47,484 nucleotides of DNA from Rhodospirillaceae bacterium. GTDB taxonomy: Bacteria > Pseudomonadota > Alphaproteobacteria > Rhodospirillales > Rhodospirillaceae. Shown in pieces: positions 4,704 through 25,634 of this stretch (the stretch's first letter is position 1; every line of letters starts with the position of its first letter). The stretch lies in NCBI GenBank assembly GCA_028822445.1, contig JAPKDQ010000011.1, positions 1-47,484 on the forward strand. Reading direction: 5' to 3'. A program made the translations under genes and the position numbers. The notes below the pieces were generated by a model, which made no database searches, had not been told where the DNA came from, and worked only from the letters and a program-made list of their open reading frames with translations.

Positions 4704-5172
4704 TATTAGATAGCCTAAATCGGAAAACTCTAATATTGGGCTCTCAATTCACGACAGCGTTCCTTTGGCGGTGGCAAGCCAATCCCTAGACATCTGAAGA
4801 ACAGAGGTACCCGATCAACTGATCTTTCTCGCACCGCCAATCTTCCCGAATTGGCCTAAACAGCATCCAACGAAGGGCCCTTGCCGCTGCAACAATCGTA
4901 ATACTTACTGCAGAGAATTTTATCTCCGGTCTAATTGCTAATAGTAGCCAATATCTTTGGCTCGCGGAAATTAATACCGAATTAATGGCTGTCTCAAGGA
5001 TGGGTCAAGGAGAGCCTTAGACTAGGGACACCTAGTGTGTGTTCCGGCGCACCACAGCCATTCGGGTTTTTGCTCTCCATAGCTCATCTAAACAGCCTGT
5101 TGGCGGCAGCTTGCTGTCCAGGCTCGGGAGGGTTAAATTCTCACATAGTTTTTTATGATAGCGAGGCGCGAC
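4704..5172. other. Intergenic region without recognised gene
   Basis: About 470 bases between the rpsU terminator and the methyltransferase at 5173. I see no convincing open frame, RNA gene or repeat. It presumably includes the promoter of the downstream gene. Confidence 0.6.
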
Positions 5173-6258
5173 ATGACCCAATCAAATTATTTTGTCGACC
5201 GCGGCATGAATGGTAACACCCCTGCCCTACCGTCTCGAGCAGACGAGAGCTTTGTAGATTACGTGTGCGAGGCCCGCAACACGCTCCTGCACGCGCGTTG
5301 GAAGCAAATGGGTGAGCACGGCAACAAGAAACTTAAGAATCACGGTATAAAAATTAAGTATAGCGCCGATTGTGTCGAGCAGGTTAGAGACGTGATAGCT
5401 GGGGATATGGAACTGTCGAGTTTCATGCGCATCAAACGCAGTTATCAAGAAATTTATAAGGACCGCATTATTGGGTCCATTAATACTCAACGCGACGAAT
5501 GGCTGCGCAAGCTCGATGAGGCCGAAACCGCTGGGCCGGGGTCACTCACCTATGACCCACATTTCCCCATGCCAGACTATGCAAAGGTTCAGATACATAT
5601 TCAGCCGAAAGGTTACGTCGGCGATGACCTAGCAGGTCTTTACTACGACTGTGGTACGCAAGTGTTCTTTGGTGGAAATAATGCTGGTGATGCCTGGCAT
5701 CGTGAATTGGCTGAACGCACAGCGTTACCAGAAGATGGTAATCTCGATCGCATACTAGAGATTGGATGCTCCGTTGGTCAGTTAGCCTGCGAGCTAAAAA
5801 AACGCAACACAGATGCAGAAGTTTGGGCCACAGATATTTCTGCACCAATGGTTCGCTACGGGCACTGGCGAGCAATGCAGCAAGACCTAGATGTCAATTT
5901 TGCTCAAATGGCGTCTGAGGCATTGGAATTTCCAGACGGTCACTTTGACCTCGTCACAGCTCATATTCTTTTCCATGAAATTCCCCGGTCAGTAATTGAG
6001 AAGACGCTTGCTGAAGCGCTGCGCGTCCTGCGTCCGGGTGGTACCTTTGTGTTATGGGATTTCTCTAGCGCCTCGGACGAGAAGCCTGGCTACGGGGGCT
6101 TCCTAGGCCTCATGGACTCGGCCGATAATGGCGAGCCCTACGCACCGGGATTCGTGACCATGGGGGTTGAAAAAATCATCGAGGATACAGGCTTCGTGAT
6201 TCGCTCTATTGGCAACCCGGCACGGATGCATGATCGCGTTTGCGACAAGCCCGCATAA
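5173..6258 (+). CDS. Class I SAM methyltransferase, cytoplasmic member of the family exported at 22.9-25.6 kb
   Basis: This protein has about 361 residues. The ATG at 5173 is preferred because GAGG lies just upstream; an ATG at 5155 has no ribosome-binding site. No signal peptide is present. An N-terminal helical domain (about residues 20-190) carries the motif IHIQPKGYVGDDLAG, shared with the two Tat-exported proteins. The SAM domain follows: ILEIGCSVGQL (about 194-204), acidic Asp221 in ATDISAPMVRYG, and LRVLRPGG. It is 19 bases upstream of an exported NADP-binding protein, so an operon is likely. Methyl acceptor unknown. Confidence 0.8.
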   Translation: MTQSNYFVDRGMNGNTPALPSRADESFVDYVCEARNTLLHARWKQMGEHGNKKLKNHGIKIKYSADCVEQVRDVIAGDMELSSFMRIKRSYQEIYKDRIIGSINTQRDEWLRKLDEAETAGPGSLTYDPHFPMPDYAKVQIHIQPKGYVGDDLAGLYYDCGTQVFFGGNNAGDAWHRELAERTALPEDGNLDRILEIGCSVGQLACELKKRNTDAEVWATDISAPMVRYGHWRAMQQDLDVNFAQMASEALEFPDGHFDLVTAHILFHEIPRSVIEKTLAEALRVLRPGGTFVLWDFSSASDEKPGYGGFLGLMDSADNGEPYAPGFVTMGVEKIIEDTGFVIRSIGNPARMHDRVCDKPA

Positions 6259-6277: not shown

Positions 6278-7069
6278 ATGACAACGCGCCGTGCCTTTGC
6301 CGCCATAGCAGTCTCTCTTTTTGTATTCGTCACCATACCTGTATCGGCAGAAGTCGTTGCCATTATAGGTACCGGTAGAATGGGAGGCGCGATTGGGCCT
6401 CGCTTTGCTGAAACAGGTCACAAGGTAATTTACGGCTCACGCAACCCGGCTTCTAAAAAAGTAAACGCGTTGGTAACGCAAACAGGACACGGTGCGCGCG
6501 CAGACACATCGGCGAAGGCTATTGCAGAGGCTGACATCATCGTGTTAGCGCTGCTTTGGTCCGCCACAGAGGATTTAATTAAGGAGAATGTCGACAAGCT
6601 CGACGGCAAGATCATCTTCGACATCACCAACGCAACTCTAAAAGCATTACAGCCAGATCGAGAGGGCGCGGTGGACAGCTCTGCAGGCGCGCTGATCCAG
6701 GCCTGGGCACCTAACGCGAAAGTCGTGAAGGCATTCAATACTGTTGGCTATCATGTCGTCGCCGACCCGGAACACGCCGGTGGACCCGTCACAGTTCCTC
6801 TGGTCGGCAATGATCAAGCCGCGGTGGAGCACGTGTCAGAAATTGTTCAAGCCATGGGCTTTCAAACCATAATCCTTGGCGGCATTGAACAGGCGCATGT
6901 CCTTGAGGGCATGGCGACCCTTTACTTCGTGCCTTATGGCTCAGGACGCTTCGACGAAGCCTTTGAGTACTATTTCCGAAAAGGTACCGCCCCAGAAGGC
7001 ATCGGCTCCGCCCAAGTTCGCGGCGCAGATATATCAGTGTCGACGACGCTAGCTGATGAAACAAGATAA
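6278..7069 (+). CDS. Exported NAD(P)-binding Rossmann protein, F420:NADP oxidoreductase-like
   Basis: This 263-residue protein starts at an ATG with AGGA 7 bases upstream. The N-terminus MTTRRAFAAIAVS is a Tat-like twin-arginine signal, with cleavage expected after PVSA. The Rossmann fold begins at once with VVAIIGTGRMGGAIG, followed by KVIYGSRNP, where the Ser-Arg is typical of NADP-phosphate recognition. Later segments (DIIVLALLW, DITNA, VVKAFNTVG) match the F420-dependent NADP oxidoreductase-like family (COG2085). In bacteria lacking F420 such proteins often act on other substrates. It follows the cytoplasmic methyltransferase and overlaps the convergent SDR by 100 bases at its 3' end. Confidence 0.78.
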   Translation: MTTRRAFAAIAVSLFVFVTIPVSAEVVAIIGTGRMGGAIGPRFAETGHKVIYGSRNPASKKVNALVTQTGHGARADTSAKAIAEADIIVLALLWSATEDLIKENVDKLDGKIIFDITNATLKALQPDREGAVDSSAGALIQAWAPNAKVVKAFNTVGYHVVADPEHAGGPVTVPLVGNDQAAVEHVSEIVQAMGFQTIILGGIEQAHVLEGMATLYFVPYGSGRFDEAFEYYFRKGTAPEGIGSAQVRGADISVSTTLADETR

Positions 7070-8100
7070 GGCTGCGTAAGGCCTTCCGAGACGGTCCAAA
7101 GCCGTTCGGCCATGGCCGCGTTTTCCATATTTTGACCAGCGACTACGGGATTGCAGTCCTCAAAGTAGAAGCCACTGATTTCTGAGAGCCCAGGTGCAGT
7201 CGCCGCATAGGTTTCCGTGGCTGCACCCGCTTCAACAGTTTTAAAGAACGGCAGCGCCCAGCTGAATAGATTGGCAAATATCCGGATATACGACGGATAG
7301 TGGCGGCCAAGATTGGTATTGATGACCCCCGGATGAATCACATTGGCCGTCGCTGTTGATTCCCCTAACCGGCGAGCCAATTCTAGCGAGAACAGACCGT
7401 TCGCGAGCTTGGAATGCCCATAAGCTGTATTTGGTACATATTCGCCCCATGCACCGTCCAAGTTATCAAACTGAATTCCGGTGTCTGGTGCCCACATGTA
7501 TCCCTGTGAACCGACCGTCACAAAACGGCCTTGTGAGGCTGACTTCACTTGTTCCATCAGGCGATTGGCGAGAATAAAGTGGCCCAAGTGATTGATGACG
7601 AAGTGACGTTCAATGCCGTTGACCTGTTGAAGTTCCGGCAGCGCCATAACACCTGCATTGAGAATCAACATATCGATAGGTGCACCCGTCGCCCCGATAG
7701 CGTCCGCGCATACAGCCATGGTTTCAAACTGTTCCAGATCGCCGGCGAAGGGTGTCGTGGTTCCAACTACAGAATTGCATGCGTCCGTCGCCTTCTCCAT
7801 GCTCCGCGCGACACCAAATACGTGTGCCCCGCGAGAGGCCAGCACTCGCATAGTCTCGTAGCCAAGCCCTGAATTACAACCGGTGATGACCGCGGTCTTT
7901 CCGGACAAATCAAGTCCGGCAGTAACCTCCTCCGCTGTCGACTCTTTCCCAAAGTTGCTCATTGGCACACCATCCGGCCGAATAATCAGGGGGGCCTCCT
8001 CATCCCCGCCACAGGCTGATAGGGACGTTGCAGCAACAAGGGCAGTAGTGCCCGTGAATAGATGGCGGCGCGATAGGCCGGACTGGGTGTCTTTACTCAT
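6970..8100 (-). CDS. Tat-exported lipoprotein short-chain dehydrogenase/reductase
   Basis: This 376-residue protein has a twin-arginine motif (SRRHLF) and a lipobox (LSAC followed by GG), so it is predicted to be a Tat-exported, membrane-anchored lipoprotein. The mature part is a classical SDR close to the retinol-dehydrogenase/WWOX type: NAD(P) loop TGCNSGLGYE, NAG motif LNAGVMAL, serine in VGSQGYMW and catalytic Tyr and Lys in AYGHSKLAN. AAAGGA lies upstream of the ATG. It sits 44 bases after pntB in the same direction and is probably the last gene of the transhydrogenase operon. Its last 33 residues are antisense to the end of the convergent NADP-binding gene. Substrate unknown. Confidence 0.8.
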   Translation of the reverse strand: MSKDTQSGLSRRHLFTGTTALVAATSLSACGGDEEAPLIIRPDGVPMSNFGKESTAEEVTAGLDLSGKTAVITGCNSGLGYETMRVLASRGAHVFGVARSMEKATDACNSVVGTTTPFAGDLEQFETMAVCADAIGATGAPIDMLILNAGVMALPELQQVNGIERHFVINHLGHFILANRLMEQVKSASQGRFVTVGSQGYMWAPDTGIQFDNLDGAWGEYVPNTAYGHSKLANGLFSLELARRLGESTATANVIHPGVINTNLGRHYPSYIRIFANLFSWALPFFKTVEAGAATETYAATAPGLSEISGFYFEDCNPVVAGQNMENAAMAERLWTVSEGLTQPYLVSSASVVDTDISAPRTWAEPMPSGAVPFRK

Positions 8101-8144: not shown

Positions 8145-9533
8145 TTAAAGAGATTGGACGATTTTTTCCGTAACTTCTTTTGCATCACCAAACAACATCA
8201 TCGTGTTGTCGCGAAAGAACAGTTCATTTGCAACGCCAGCGTAACCGGCAGACATAGAGCGTTTTACAAATAGAACAGTCTTCGCCTTCTCTACATCGAG
8301 AATTGGCATGCCATAGATCGGACTTTTCGGATCGGTCTTCGCCACAGGATTGGTTACGTCATTTGCGCCGATCACGTAGACCACATCAGCCGTACTGAAT
8401 TCATTATTGATCTCCTCCAGCTCGAAGACCTCGTCATAGGGTACGTTTGCTTCCGCGAGCAGCACGTTCATATGTCCAGGCATCCGTCCAGCCACGGGAT
8501 GAATGGCGTACCGAACGTCCACGCCTTCTGCCTTCAGCCTGTCTGCCATTTCACGCAATGCATGTTGTGCTTGTGCAACCGCCATGCCGTAGCCAGGAAC
8601 GATGATGACTTTCGAGGCATTACCCATAATAAATGCTGCGTCTTCCCCCGCGCCTGACTTCACGCTTCGGTCACCAGCTACCGCTGCTGGTCCTGCTGCG
8701 GCATCTCCGCCAAATCCGCCAAGGATCACATTAACGATAGAGCGATTCATGCCCTTGCACATGATGTAGGATAAAATAGCCCCAGAAGAGCCGACTAATG
8801 CACCAACAATAATAAGAAGAGAATTACCAAGCGTGAACCCGATGCCGGCCGCTGCCCAACCAGAGTACGAATTGAGCATGGACACTACGACCGGCATATC
8901 AGCCCCGCCGATGGGAAGAATAAGCAGAAAGCCGAGCGCGAAACTCAAAAGAGCGATCAGCACAAAGAGCGACACACTTTCTGTATTGCAGAACCAGATA
9001 ACCAACACGAGCAACGCAACACCCAGCAGAGCATTGAGAGCATGCTGACCTGGGAAAACCAAAGGGTTGCCCGACATAAGACCCTGCAATTTAGCAAAGG
9101 CAATAACTGACCCGGAAAAGGTTACCGCGCCAATGGTAAGGCCGATCGACATTTCTACCAAACTACCGGTTTTAATCTCACCGACGACGCCAATACCATA
9201 GGCTTCCGGTGCCAACAGAGCGGCGAATGAAACTAGCACAGCGGCCATACCCACCAGGCTATGGAAGGCCGCGACCAATTGAGGCAACGCCGTCATTTCG
9301 ATACGCTTAGCAATAATTGTGCCAGCTGTTCCACCGACTACCAAACCTACAACAATCCAGACGTAGGCCGTGACCTCTGGCGAAATTAAAGTCGTAAGAA
9401 TAGCGATAGTCATACCGACCATGCCGAATTTGTTTCCTCGGCGCGCCGTCTCTGGAGATGATAACCCACGCAAAGTGAGGATGAAAAAGACGCCCGCGAT
9501 CAGATAGGCGAGCAGTGTAGCTCCTTGTGCCAT
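8145..9533 (-). CDS. pntB: NAD(P) transhydrogenase subunit beta
   Basis: This 462-residue protein is the beta subunit of the proton-translocating transhydrogenase, which uses the proton gradient to reduce NADP with NADH. The N-terminal half has many membrane segments. The C-terminal NADP-binding domain III shows VPGYGMAVAQAQHALREM, AIHPVAGRMPGHMNVLLAEA and VIGANDVTNPVAKTDP. Length is normal for the family. It follows the alpha-2 gene by nine bases. Confidence 0.96.
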   Translation of the reverse strand: MAQGATLLAYLIAGVFFILTLRGLSSPETARRGNKFGMVGMTIAILTTLISPEVTAYVWIVVGLVVGGTAGTIIAKRIEMTALPQLVAAFHSLVGMAAVLVSFAALLAPEAYGIGVVGEIKTGSLVEMSIGLTIGAVTFSGSVIAFAKLQGLMSGNPLVFPGQHALNALLGVALLVLVIWFCNTESVSLFVLIALLSFALGFLLILPIGGADMPVVVSMLNSYSGWAAAGIGFTLGNSLLIIVGALVGSSGAILSYIMCKGMNRSIVNVILGGFGGDAAAGPAAVAGDRSVKSGAGEDAAFIMGNASKVIIVPGYGMAVAQAQHALREMADRLKAEGVDVRYAIHPVAGRMPGHMNVLLAEANVPYDEVFELEEINNEFSTADVVYVIGANDVTNPVAKTDPKSPIYGMPILDVEKAKTVLFVKRSMSAGYAGVANELFFRDNTMMLFGDAKEVTEKIVQSL

Positions 9534-21720: not shown

Positions 21721-22580
21721 AATTTTCTCCTACAATTGTAGTGGACGCGTATCGCCCAGGGCCGCTGGATATAGCAGGTCAGGTGGTCGAAAAGAAAGAG
21801 GAACAATTTTGTATTTTTACAGGCTATTTATATTACCCAAGCGCAAAAATGAGTGGTTTCATATATTAAATTAGCGCCTGTAGTTTGGGCGTGTACATAT
21901 AGGTATTAGCCATCGCGACCTGTCTAAACGCGCTGAATACATCGTCGAGGTTAACCGCATCGCACATTAACTTGGCGGTCAGGGTGGGGGTTTCGTTTAC
22001 CCACCAATAACCCTATTAGCAAAAAAATTTACAAAAAGCAGGGTGTGCCTGCCGCGGGGGTGGCTCAAATATTCAAATATATCGTGCTCATATCGACACC
22101 CTCAGGGTTGTGGTTCGCCAGAAAACCGAAGCTGAAGGAAGAGCAATAAGCCACCAATTCCTCACATAGCCCAAACAGCCAATTACAAAATATAGCCGCT
22201 GAATGACCGAGCCTATCAAACCTTAACTCCGAACCGAGCCACCAAAATAAATTTTCCTTTTAATAACAATATCTTATGCGAACGTGCTTTGCGGTCGTGA
22301 GGAAAACGTGAGCCAGCCTGGCGAAAATTCAGCCGCCCTTAAAGGAAAGGTACTTTCAGGCACAGGCGAGCTAAAGTAGAACATCGCTTAGAAACGATTT
22401 TAGAAGTCTGGAATGAGTCAATTTATTATGGCGTTGACTGATCCTAACTGGCCTCAAAGATCGTAAGAATTAAAAGATAGATAAAATTCTTTCAATCAGG
22501 CACTGCAGTACTATGTGTAACTGTATCGCCAGCCCACTTTTAGATAGTGGGTATGAAAGACATAACCAGGAGGCAAATTG
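21721..22580. other. Long AT-rich intergenic region upstream of the methyltransferase cluster
   Basis: About 860 bases between gapR and the 116-residue gene. No supported gene. Two minus-strand stop-free stretches (21866-22012, and about 60 codons ending near 22070) lie in different frames and have no start or ribosome site; they may be decayed coding sequence. A hairpin sits just before the next gene. Confidence 0.5.
22533..22551 (+). promoter_or_regulatory. Hairpin in the leader of the 22581 gene
   Basis: cccact (22533-22538) pairs with agtggg (22546-22551) around a 7-base loop, ending 14 bases before the GGAGG ribosome-binding site. It has no T tract, so a leader structure is more likely than a terminator. 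Function unknown. Confidence 0.35.
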
Positions 22581-22931
22581 ATGGCCACGAGCAAACTTAA
22601 GACCGACCGCCCAACCTACGCGTCTGACTTCATCGCCTCGGATGTAGAACGCGCAGTATTCCTAGGAAATCCAGTCCTCGATAACATGATGACCAGCCTA
22701 ATCGCCCTTGGCGCCGAAGTTTGGTCAAACCGCCGGCGGATGAAAGTGGTCGAAGCCCTTCTGGCCGAAAAAGGCGTAACAGCTGAAATGATCGAAACTT
22801 ACATGCCAACGACAGAGCAAGATGCCGAATGGCAGAAGGACCGCGATCGCTTCATCGACCTGACTTATTCACCATTGCTGCGCGAAGGCGACCTTCCCGT
22901 CTCAGCAGCCTTCACACGTGAAAACAAGTAA
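22581..22931 (+). CDS. Hypothetical protein, first gene of the exported-methyltransferase cluster
   Basis: This 116-residue, probably helical protein starts at an ATG with a near-perfect CCAGGAGG seven bases upstream. It has no signal peptide and no cysteines. Features are a central AEVWSNRRRMKVVEALLAEKG helix and an acidic C-terminal half. I recognise no family. The Tat methyltransferase gene starts 31 bases after its stop, so they are probably co-transcribed. It could be a cytoplasmic partner, chaperone or regulator of the exported enzyme; this is inference from position only. Confidence 0.72.
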   Translation: MATSKLKTDRPTYASDFIASDVERAVFLGNPVLDNMMTSLIALGAEVWSNRRRMKVVEALLAEKGVTAEMIETYMPTTEQDAEWQKDRDRFIDLTYSPLLREGDLPVSAAFTRENK

Positions 22932-22962: not shown

Positions 22963-24171
22963 ATGTTAGACCGTCGTTCCCTCTTTGCTGCTACGGCAGC
23001 GGTTGGTTCCTTCGTCGGCGCCGCATTTAGCAGCCGCAAAGCCAACGCCGCTGCATCAGCACATACATACGTTAACGGCACCCCAGCGGGTGACGTAGAG
23101 CTACGTGGTTCAAAGGGCCGTATTGAGCGCCTTCCCACTCTTGATCTTGAAAGCAAGCATGACTTTGTGACTGGCTTCCGGACGTTTCACAAAAAATTTA
23201 ATCGCCCAGCTAGCAAAAGAATAGAAAAGCTTCTTGAAGAAAAGGGCCTTGATCCAAAGGGGAAATACTCCATGGAACAAGTAAATGAACTGGTAGAGAA
23301 AGATCCACTTGTTCAGATGAGTGCTCGCACCTGGATCAGCAACCAGCAAATTACCTGGAAAATTCTACAGGACCATTTCCATGAGAATGCAGATGATTAC
23401 ATTGCAGAAATGGAAGCAGCAGATAATGTTGGTCCGGGCACATTAGAACTCAACCCGGATATGGAAATTCCAAAATATACAAAACACGAAATCCATATTC
23501 AGCCAGGTGGCTATGTCGGCGACGAATTTGCAGGTCATATCTATCACTACGGTACCAATAGCTTTTACGTCGGCGCGATCGGCGATAACGAGCAGGACCA
23601 AATTCACATAGGCGTAGCTAACCGCTTGCCACTTCCAGAAGACGGCAAAGTCAAACGCGTTCTCGTCATGGGTTGTGGAACAGGCCAACTTACCACCGCG
23701 ATGGCTGAGCGCTTCCCTGACGCAGAAGTTTGGGGCATTGACGTTGGTGCTCCAATGGTTCGCTACGCACACCTACGCGCCAACGACCTCGGCGTTAAGG
23801 TCAACTTCGCCCAGCGAATTGTGGAAGATACAAAGTTTGACGACGGCTACTTCGATATAGTGACATCTTACATCATCAACCACGAACTGACGCAAGACGC
23901 CAGCCGTGCGATGATCGCGGAAGCTCATCGTGTCCTTCGTCCAGGTGGGTATTTCTACCCCGTCGATTTCCGCTCTGGTGGCGATACAGGACGTGCCTAT
24001 GGCCAATACCGCCGCTGGTGGGATCATCGCTGGAACACTGAAGTCTGGAGCCGTGAGTACCATTCATTAGATTTCGACGGTGAAATAGAGAAAGCTGGTT
24101 TCACCATGAATAAAGAAACGAAGGCAGCTCTGCCTGGGTTTGGTGCCCGGCACGCCGTGAAGAAGGCTTAA
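22963..24171 (+). CDS. Tat-exported SAM-dependent methyltransferase, copy 1
   Basis: This 402-residue protein starts at an ATG with AGGAGA upstream. Residues 1-29 form a textbook Tat signal: DRRSLF at 3-8, a weakly hydrophobic stretch, Sec-avoiding Arg25-Lys26 and the cleavage motif ANA. A helical domain follows, with the family motif IHIQPGGYVGDEFAGHIYHY at about residues 178-197. The SAM domain shows VLVMGCGTGQL, acidic Asp in WGIDVGAPMVRYAHLRA, and LRPGGYFYPVDFR. The same fold occurs without a signal at 5173 and with an identical signal at 24423. An intact SAM site in an exported protein is unusual. A strong terminator follows. Confidence 0.85.
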   Translation: MLDRRSLFAATAAVGSFVGAAFSSRKANAAASAHTYVNGTPAGDVELRGSKGRIERLPTLDLESKHDFVTGFRTFHKKFNRPASKRIEKLLEEKGLDPKGKYSMEQVNELVEKDPLVQMSARTWISNQQITWKILQDHFHENADDYIAEMEAADNVGPGTLELNPDMEIPKYTKHEIHIQPGGYVGDEFAGHIYHYGTNSFYVGAIGDNEQDQIHIGVANRLPLPEDGKVKRVLVMGCGTGQLTTAMAERFPDAEVWGIDVGAPMVRYAHLRANDLGVKVNFAQRIVEDTKFDDGYFDIVTSYIINHELTQDASRAMIAEAHRVLRPGGYFYPVDFRSGGDTGRAYGQYRRWWDHRWNTEVWSREYHSLDFDGEIEKAGFTMNKETKAALPGFGARHAVKKA

Positions 24172-24201
24172 ATACAAATAATCTCTTATGGTTTTCGGTT
24201 T

Positions 24202-24235
24202 AACCCCGTCTCAGGAGACTGAGGCGGGGTTTTTC
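24202..24235 (+). terminator. Rho-independent terminator after methyltransferase copy 1
   Basis: aaccccg (24202-24208) pairs with cggggtt (24225-24231), with an inner ctca/tgag pairing, followed by a T run. It isolates copy 1 from copy 2, so copy 2 needs its own promoter in 24236-24400. Confidence 0.88.
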
Positions 24236-24422
24236 TATGGTTTCTGCCCAGCTAAATTCTACAAATCGGTCAAAACTGCAGTAAAACCATGAAAAAACTA
24301 AAAACCTGCCAAATTAATGCACGTTTTCAGACTATACTAAGTTAGATTCCCAGACTTACAATGTCAGAGTTCCATCAAGGGCTATTCACAGGTAGACGAT
24401 AGAGAATACAGGAGTTTTAGAG

Positions 24423-25634
24423 ATGCTAGATCGCCGTTCACTATTTGCAGCGACTGCCGCAGTAGGATCTTTTGTCGGTGCAGCACTTGGTGGCCGCAAG
24501 GCCGAGGCTGCTACCACCTACACGACAAAAAACCTATCTCCTAAAGGGGATGTCAACAAACGCGGCACTAGGGGTCGGTTTGAACGCGTCCCGGAATTGG
24601 ACCTTGAGAGTAAATGGGATTTCGTCACTGGATTTAGGCATTTTCAGCAACGATTTAATCCCGTGGCCCGTGCACGCGTCAATAAAATCATGGAAGCTAA
24701 CGGGCTCGACCCCAAAGCCAAGCTCTCCTATGAACACGCTCTAAAGCTCGTTGAGGATGACCTTCTTATTCAGACCAGCGGTCGGACCTGGGTCAGCAAT
24801 CAACAAATCACGTGGAAGATCTTTCAAGACTACTACCACGAGCATGCTGACGAGTACCTGGACGAAATGGAAGCCGCTGACAATGCCGGCCCGGGCACCT
24901 TGGAACTCAACCCTGGTATGGAAATTCCAACTTACATTCGCCATGAGATTCATATTCAGCCGGGCGGCTATGTAGGCGATGCCTTCGCAGGCCACATCTA
25001 TCATCATGGGACCAACAGTTTCTCTGCTGCCATTTCTTTCCTGGGTGATAATGAGCAGGATCAAATCCCCATAAGAACAGTGAACCGTCTTCCTCTGCCT
25101 GAGGACGGAAAGGTCATACGTATTCTCGACATGGGCTGCGGTATTGGCCGGATGACGGTCGCTCTTAAAGAGCGCTTTCCGGATGCCGAGGTCTGGGGAA
25201 TTGATGCTGGAGGGCCCATCGTCCGCTATGCCCACATGCGCGCAAATGACCTAGGTATCGATGTTAATTTCGCTCAACGGTTGGCGGAAGATACAAAATT
25301 TGAAGACGGCTATTTTGACATGGTGCTCTCATCCATTATCAATCATGAAATCCCCTCAGAGGATAATAAAAAAGTCATTGCTGAGGCCTATCGTTTGACC
25401 CGCAAGGGCGGCTACTACTATCCAATCGATTTCCGAACAGGAAGCGATAAGGACGTTGTCCTTAATCAGTACCGCCGGTGGTGGGACCACCGCTGGAATT
25501 GCGAGCCATGGTCTCCCGAATTTGTTGCCTTTGACTTCGAAGGTGAAATCGAAAAAGCTGGGTTTGTTATTAATCGTGAAACAAAGCCTGCGCAGCCAGG
25601 CTTTGGAGCTAGACACTCAGTGAAGACGACTTAA
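24423..25634 (+). CDS. Tat-exported SAM-dependent methyltransferase, copy 2
   Basis: This 403-residue paralogue of the preceding gene has AGGAG upstream of the ATG. The first 21 residues of the Tat signal are identical to copy 1, and Arg25-Lys26 and the cleavage region (AEA) are kept. The mature domain repeats the pattern: IHIQPGGYVGDAFAGHIYHH, SAM loop ILDMGCGIGRM, Asp in GIDAGGPIVRYAHMRA, then the GGYYYPIDFRTGS region. It has a three-residue insertion near FSAAISFLGDNEQ. Both copies share RRWWDHRWN and end GFGARH followed by basic residues. A divergent duplication is clear. Methyl acceptor unknown. Confidence 0.85.
   Translation: MLDRRSLFAATAAVGSFVGAALGGRKAEAATTYTTKNLSPKGDVNKRGTRGRFERVPELDLESKWDFVTGFRHFQQRFNPVARARVNKIMEANGLDPKAKLSYEHALKLVEDDLLIQTSGRTWVSNQQITWKIFQDYYHEHADEYLDEMEAADNAGPGTLELNPGMEIPTYIRHEIHIQPGGYVGDAFAGHIYHHGTNSFSAAISFLGDNEQDQIPIRTVNRLPLPEDGKVIRILDMGCGIGRMTVALKERFPDAEVWGIDAGGPIVRYAHMRANDLGIDVNFAQRLAEDTKFEDGYFDMVLSSIINHEIPSEDNKKVIAEAYRLTRKGGYYYPIDFRTGSDKDVVLNQYRRWWDHRWNCEPWSPEFVAFDFEGEIEKAGFVINRETKPAQPGFGARHSVKTT

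Follow-up and report, generated by a model that had tools for sequence, protein, structure and literature searches.

Tat-type leaders mark one clade of a large methyltransferase-fold family with a small helical partner protein in a Rhodospirillaceae bacterium

The stretch of DNA analysed here, called the window, comprises 47,484 nucleotides of contig JAPKDQ010000011.1 from a Rhodospirillaceae bacterium (assembly GCA_028822445.1). It carries two neighbouring genes for methyltransferase-fold proteins with Tat-type leaders, at 22963-24171 and 24423-25634, for which the coordinates, plus strand and ATG starts given by an earlier sequence-only reading are correct. The features are as follows.

5155..6258, + strand: leaderless member of the enzyme family, the third in the window, placed just outside the Tat clade in a 76-row tree
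22581..22931, + strand: small helical partner protein, 116 aa, no signal peptide seen; ATG at 22581, the listed ORF opening with TTG at 22578
22963..24171, + strand: Tat-type methyltransferase-fold protein 1, 402 aa; ATG start, AGGAG 8 bases upstream
22963..23052, + strand: Tat-type leader of protein 1, aa 1-30, RR at 4-5, ANA at 28-30; cleavage site read by eye
23131..23637, + strand: helical N-terminal domain of protein 1, about aa 57-225, with EIHIQPGGYVGD at 176-187; approximate boundaries
23650..23970, + strand: SAM-binding Rossmann domain of protein 1, aa 230-336; GCGTG at 237-241, D260, H307-E308
24202..24231, + strand: terminator-like hairpin of 13 pairs between both enzyme genes
24423..25634, + strand: Tat-type methyltransferase-fold protein 2, 403 aa; ATG start, AGGAG 8 bases upstream
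24423..24512, + strand: Tat-type leader of protein 2, aa 1-30

Protein 2 is 68% identical to protein 1, and a wrong start codon is unlikely for either gene, the ribosome-binding site AGGAG preceding each ATG. The description of the two genes as tandem holds for their position, but because a terminator-like hairpin intervenes they may form separate transcription units; hairpin matches of this kind are no commoner in the region than in shuffled sequence. The partner gene precedes the gene of protein 1, while no partner gene directly adjoins that of protein 2. Read by eye, the leaders MLDRRSLFAATAAVGSFVGAAFSSRKANA (protein 1) and MLDRRSLFAATAAVGSFVGAALGGRKAEA (protein 2) each present a twin arginine and a hydrophobic stretch, with basic residues and then an AxA-type end.

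Both proteins retain the intact SAM-binding loop that had been claimed for them, motif I being GCGTG in protein 1 and GCGIG in protein 2, together with the acidic residue after strand 2, which is D260 in protein 1. Pfam Methyltransf_25 spans residues 233-329 in protein 1 (E 3.4e-23) and 234-330 in protein 2 (E 4.1e-20), and PF13649 scores 82.6 and 72.7 bits, respectively, against a cut-off of 27. The proteins thus share with class I SAM-dependent methyltransferases (PF13649, PF08241, PF13847) the Rossmann domain above cut-off, the glycine loop and the acidic residue, whereas the family described here also has its own N-terminal domain, about 170 residues long, as well as a partner family and, in one clade, a Tat-type leader. 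An anti-phage role was considered and rejected, as the PADLOC match (mad2) spans the methyltransferase domain only.

An AlphaFold2 model of protein 1 built with 63 family sequences (mean pLDDT 87.8, pTM 0.85) presents a disordered leader and a helical N-terminal region, with helices between residues 60-153 and 190-221. That this region, which carries the motif EIHIQPGGYVGD in both window proteins, resembles nothing recognisable was borne out: among the Pfam and NCBIfam matches listed, the Rossmann domain alone was recognised, and no PDB sequence matched the region either with protein 1 (best 60 of 110 matches) or with the family profile (best 60 of 290). PDB sequence matches that extend beyond the Rossmann domain are second stretches in double-domain methyltransferases. 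In a Foldseek search of the PDB with the whole enzyme model, the best 50 of 1811 matches are methyltransferases whose query TM-scores do not exceed 0.45; alignments spanning most of the chain, to O-methyltransferase-type enzymes, have an rmsd of 11-18 Å, and none of the 50 gives a convincing fold match over the N-terminal domain. The domain, about 170 residues long, is undescribed in Pfam, NCBIfam and the PDB as searched. It is also common to the leaderless homologues in the window's genome and, since these presumably cytoplasmic paralogues share it, it is not an adaptation to export. No characterised cytoplasmic family with the same N-terminus was found in these searches, although uncharacterised leaderless paralogues do have it.

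The two-gene picture of the sequence-only reading was right in that both proteins are real, but it missed the number of paralogues, the partner protein and the history of retargeting. A search of the window's genome (2.85 Mb, 99% complete, 41 contigs) with protein 1 hit 48 places, which, after exclusion of one short generic methyltransferase, correspond to 47 family members; the family profile likewise gave 47 matches at E <= 1e-30. At an assumed 1.2 kb per gene, these 47 genes make up about 2% of the genome. Profile counts were 54, 70, 62 and 34 in genomes of the same taxonomic family (G003, G009, G022 and G029, respectively) and 63 and 42 in two genomes of another family of the class (G395 and G219). 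Across 61 genomes, the window's included and with up to 30 matches scored per genome, 14 had at least 23 matches (genera g1, g2, g4, g6, g17 and g23) and the remaining 47 had between 0 and 8, all of them weak (best E 6e-11). With the threshold set at E <= 1e-40, the profile matched 25 of 385 genomes of the class and 4 of 398 of the phylum, two of these four lying outside the class, where both samples include the window's genome and up to five candidates were scored per genome. A named-record search yielded 14 loci. Thirteen belong to the family and come from metagenome assemblies, which are assigned to Rhodospirillaceae or Alphaproteobacteria and, in one case, to Marinimicrobia, which may be misbinned; to judge by the isolate names, sources may include San Francisco Bay, Saanich Inlet and Lake Baikal. 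The fourteenth (L029) is a generic match, with 29% identity over 134 residues. Among the matches listed in the open-licence literature, we found nothing relevant on the family, on exported or periplasmic methyltransferases, or on expanded methyltransferase families in such bacteria.

Twelve of the 47 members in the window's genome have a leader, 34 do not, and one is cut by a contig end ahead of the leader region. We then widened the set to 140 distinct homologues, drawn from the window's genome and others for their similarity to the query and hence not a random sample, and count a Tat-type (RR) leader in 84. This count derives from a hydropathy filter, which set aside 12 of the 140 proteins as having too short an upstream region and detected a hydrophobic stretch upstream in 87 of the other 128, with RR ahead of it in 81. 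Stop-to-stop scanning yields false leaders, hence the calls were corrected by eye: L059 was removed and L098, L107, L104 and L086 were added, giving 84. Among the six filter matches without RR, L098 does have the pair, which the filter missed, L022 has lost one arginine, and L065, L075, L053 and L115 639 are upstream sequence or unclear by eye.

In a tree of the 140 proteins built without the leader, all 84 Tat-type proteins fall on one side of a single branch, accompanied by five leaderless ones (L006 at 2691, L022 with its lost arginine, L110 at 7415, and L115 twice) and by four truncated proteins that were not counted, such that 84 of the 89 classified members on that side have an RR leader. 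The leader label changes five times on this tree, compared with about 42 in shuffles, and an earlier 76-row tree gave the same pattern. The leader would most simply have arisen once, followed by few losses; the tree is unrooted, and the direction of gain is read from leaderless members in other families (13 rows of the 76-row tree). RR is retained while the remaining leader residues diverge, and an AxA-like end occurs in 66 of 67 leaders scanned, by a permissive pattern and with no background control; RR was required for entry into this set, and its 67/67 RR count is thus circular and was given no weight. A chance origin of the leaders was rejected, since they are confined to one part of the tree and keep RR as the rest changes. 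The genome of the window also encodes one TatC (237 bits). The earlier claim of Tat-type leaders on both window proteins is thereby strengthened, and with leaders confined to a single region of the tree, RR kept in them and TatC encoded in the genome, Tat targeting of the clade appears very probable.

Clustering the genes around the 47 enzyme copies uncovered the partner family, which counts 25 genes in the window's genome. By distances measured between open frames in the fetched loci, 22 of these adjoin an enzyme gene, sharing its strand in 20 cases and lying on the opposite strand in 2; two of the 22 flank a single enzyme gene at L041. The other three partner genes stand alone. In all five Tat-type cases the partner lies upstream; of the 17 others, 12 have it downstream and 3 upstream, the remaining 2 being divergent or convergent. 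Five of the 12 Tat-type genes have a directly adjoining partner, some of the 12 sitting in arrays or near contig ends. Among the 385 class genomes, enzyme and partner occur together in 23, the enzyme only in 2 (G119, G283), the partner only in 1 (G430) and neither in 359 (Fisher p 1.2e-33 at the thresholds used, genomes not being independent). Outside the window's genome, 63 partner genes were listed, and at least 33 of them have a listed enzyme gene on the same strand no more than 600 bases away; the count is a lower bound, given that up to five enzymes were scored per genome. At least one adjacent pair is present in 20 of the 23 other genomes with the partner.

The partner's AlphaFold2 model, of only moderate quality (mean pLDDT 71), has helices at residues 31-63 and 78-100. 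Pfam and NCBIfam give no match above cut-off for the partner; its best PDB sequence match, with an E of 0.0074 across 23 residues, is not convincing, and a fold search of the PDB gave none (best E 6.8). In families f55, f124 and f163 of the class, the partner has a long Lys/Ala-rich N-terminal tail. The window partner and that of L030, in the same genome, are 97.4% identical as proteins, with a saturated pS of 0.77 and a dN of 0.011, compared with a dN of 0.37 between their enzymes; a third copy, L060, which stands alone, shares 99.1% identity with the window partner. Judged by these substitutions, the partner is under strong purifying selection, and recent gene conversion was rejected, the synonymous sites being saturated. 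The pattern is consistent with a near-constant partner shared among several diverging enzymes, although the Tat-type partners of L033 and L032 have diverged, with 54% and 44% identity to the window's. A role as Tat chaperone only is unlikely, because the partner accompanies leaderless enzymes too. A physical complex between enzyme and partner seems quite likely.

Conservation was counted in the corrected groups of 84 Tat-type and 52 other proteins, the four truncated ones left out. P170 and H178 are invariant in all rows that have the residue (H178 in 84/84 Tat-type and 52/52 others), as are H307 and E308 (83/83 and 52/52), while E360 is found in 81/81 and 50/51, and D260 in 82/83 and 50/52. 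In the glycine loop, G237 (83/83) and G241 (81/83 Tat-type rows) are near-invariant in the leaderless group as well. Residue 235, the acidic position of motif I, is acidic in all 52 leaderless rows and in 74 of 83 Tat-type ones, and V or H in the other nine; it is V in protein 1 and D in protein 2. Where it is lost, some members of the Tat clade might bind SAM less tightly or in a different way.

H307-E308 follows strand 4 and aligns with the metal-binding His-His of CysG, one of the CysG/BelI metal-dependent carboxyl O-methyltransferases (PDB 9FCD and relatives) that match the Rossmann domain. In CysG, the His-His pair and an Asp bind a divalent metal on which carboxyl O-methylation depends (PMC11408123). 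The His-His-Asp motif of CysG/BelI was not found in the family, which has HE at the place where those enzymes have HH, and the solved CysG chain, at 215 residues, is too short to hold the N-terminal domain seen here. We infer a metal or acid-base site at the conserved residues, with moderate confidence that the enzyme holds a metal; a site related to that of CysG/BelI is possible, and membership in that group is not claimed.

SAM enzymes are generally taken as cytoplasmic, and the puzzle raised by the sequence-only reading, an exported protein with a SAM-binding fold, stands. Tat-type and leaderless proteins keep the glycine loop and the acidic residue after strand 2 equally well, and the one SAM synthetase gene and the one SAH hydrolase gene detected in the window's genome by Pfam search have no leader in the frame read. 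Near-invariance of D260 and the glycine loop in both groups argues for a bound SAM-type ligand in the family. For an enzyme clade that conserves both Tat-type leaders and SAM-contact residues, either the periplasm would have to contain SAM or the protein would have to take its bound cofactor along on export; to our knowledge, either would be new.

The enzyme loci lie near FAD_binding_4 oxidases, cupins, alpha/beta hydrolases, SDRs, and MFS and TonB transporters, and at some Tat-type loci the neighbours include PQQ dehydrogenases, a TonB receptor and flavin oxidases whose N-termini resemble leaders. Ten neighbours were scanned with Pfam (one had no match), and the rest were named by clustering or by eye. 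Genes of similar kinds also occur around the leaderless homologues of two plasmids, Novosphingobium resinovorum pSA1 and Sphingomonas JE1 pJE1. These neighbours may hint at breakdown of organic compounds.

On balance, and with some reserve, we favour the reading that the Tat-type proteins are the periplasmic branch of a large two-part family, made up of a methyltransferase-fold subunit and its partner, that is exported folded and cofactor-loaded. The subunit, a class I methyltransferase fold of 360-400 residues with its own helical N-terminal domain, would take up a SAM-type ligand while folding in the cytoplasm, and H307-E308, with E360 and/or H178, would probably hold a divalent metal. The leaderless helical partner, of about 110 residues, would bind the subunit and either ride out with it or stay behind as a folding partner, and Tat would move the folded holo-enzyme into the periplasm. 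There the enzyme may act on small organic molecules, retaining SAM as a prosthetic group rather than spending it at each turn, with dozens of diverging enzyme subunits providing a range of substrates.

Precedents exist for parts of this scheme. The glucose-fructose oxidoreductase of Zymomonas is exported by Tat while loaded with its nucleotide cofactor, and the work of Halbig in 1999 reportedly offers a precedent for Tat export of an NADP-containing enzyme; what is shared is the idea of cofactor-loaded Tat export, the enzyme being unrelated and its cofactor being NADP. LepI, SpnF and SlnM are methyltransferase-fold enzymes that keep SAM or SAH unconsumed (PMC10491745). These natural-product enzymes serve as a comparison for the way of working only, in holding SAM or SAH as a prosthetic group; the relation to the family seen here is confined to the Rossmann domain. 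We prefer a carried prosthetic group because SAM synthetase and SAH hydrolase are leaderless and because of the precedents of LepI, SpnF and SlnM and of Tat export of the NADP enzyme; that SAM goes unconsumed is nonetheless a tentative proposal by analogy, with somewhat less than an even chance. It is rather doubtful that all elements combine into a new class, in which SAM and metal would be loaded in the cytoplasm and a clade, moved once by acquisition of a Tat leader, would be exported folded with a near-constant partner for non-methylating periplasmic catalysis on diverse substrates.

Alternatively, the exported proteins could be true SAM-consuming periplasmic methyltransferases, supplied with SAM by an unknown exporter or from outside and methylating small molecules or envelope components. 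The kept glycine loop and D260 suit this reading, both the fold and the closest relatives of solved structure are of the methyltransferase type, and HE occupies part of the catalytic metal site of the O-methyltransferase CysG. However, the only SAM synthetase and SAH hydrolase found have no leader, and a dozen periplasmic enzymes would depend on a hypothetical SAM supply, so that we regard this as unlikely. Less probable still is that the leader acts as an uncleaved or non-productive membrane tether, with the enzyme methylating at the cytoplasmic face, where SAM is made and where the leaderless partner would be found. No export puzzle would then arise, but a mere tether needs neither the RR kept through leader divergence nor the AxA-like end that the permissive, uncontrolled pattern picks up in nearly all leaders.

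A conversion of the fold into a metal-dependent lyase, hydrolase or isomerase working without SAM, with the loop kept for structure, would agree with the conserved potential ligands, with the loss of the motif I acidic residue in the nine Tat-type rows and with the catabolic-looking neighbours (FAD_binding_4 oxidases, cupins, alpha/beta hydrolases and TonB receptors). Yet D260 and the glycine loop are near-invariant with and without leader, making this conversion very improbable. The chemistry of the family is probably important to the life of these uncultured, apparently aquatic bacteria, because it takes up about 2% of the window's genome and reaches 70 copies in a related one.

Homologues also occur on plasmids, namely pJE1 of Sphingomonas sp. 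JE1 (WP_087573421, with the partner WP_087573420) and pSA1 of Novosphingobium resinovorum SA1, and further in Novosphingobium sp. RL4, Sphingobium sp. TomTYG65 and Antarctobacter heliothermus. The homologues on the two plasmids checked, those of JE1 and SA1, have no Tat-type leader. The JE1 proteins are annotated as "class I SAM-dependent methyltransferase" and, for the partner, "hypothetical protein". The name Sphingomonas sp. JE1 was not found among the literature matches listed, and the word methyltransferase is absent from the TomTYG65 paper. Through the plasmids of Novosphingobium, Sphingobium and Sphingomonas, the enzyme and its partner become accessible to study in bacteria that grow in culture. 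Each plasmid carries one to six enzyme places, and the partner adjoins the enzyme in all five of the plasmid records examined, out of nine found.

Locus L034, in the window's own genome, carries four genes of the methyltransferase-fold enzyme family in a row, in an array that reaches past the contig end.

6742-11142, (-) strand: four consecutive enzyme genes

Tat-type leaders are present on three of the four, and the fourth is cut before its start. The family is also expanded in a second family of the class, f55, with 63 copies in one genome (G395) and 42 in another (G219), and among the f55 members examined no leader was seen.

Within the window, the third family member, itself leaderless, is adjoined by two nucleotide-binding-loop proteins, each with its own twin-arginine (RR) leader.

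6970-8100, (-) strand, and 6278-7069, (+) strand: the two RR-leader neighbours

One is a short-chain dehydrogenase (Pfam adh_short match) with the lipoprotein-like leader SRRHLFTGTTALVAATSLSAC, and the other, as read by eye, has a GTGRMG loop preceded by TRRAFAAIAVSLFVFVTIPVSA. Further cofactor enzymes of this organism may be exported in a loaded state.

The small helical partner protein of the window has a third, solitary copy at locus L060 of the same genome.

8488-8847, (-) strand: solitary partner gene

The encoded protein is 99.1% identical to the window's partner, and no enzyme gene lies beside it at this locus; its neighbour is, by appearance, a peptide-type solute-binding protein. In other families of the class (loci L064, L069, L076, L078 and L079), partner proteins bear long N-terminal tails whose Lys/Ala-rich, histone-H1-like composition suggests polyanion binding.
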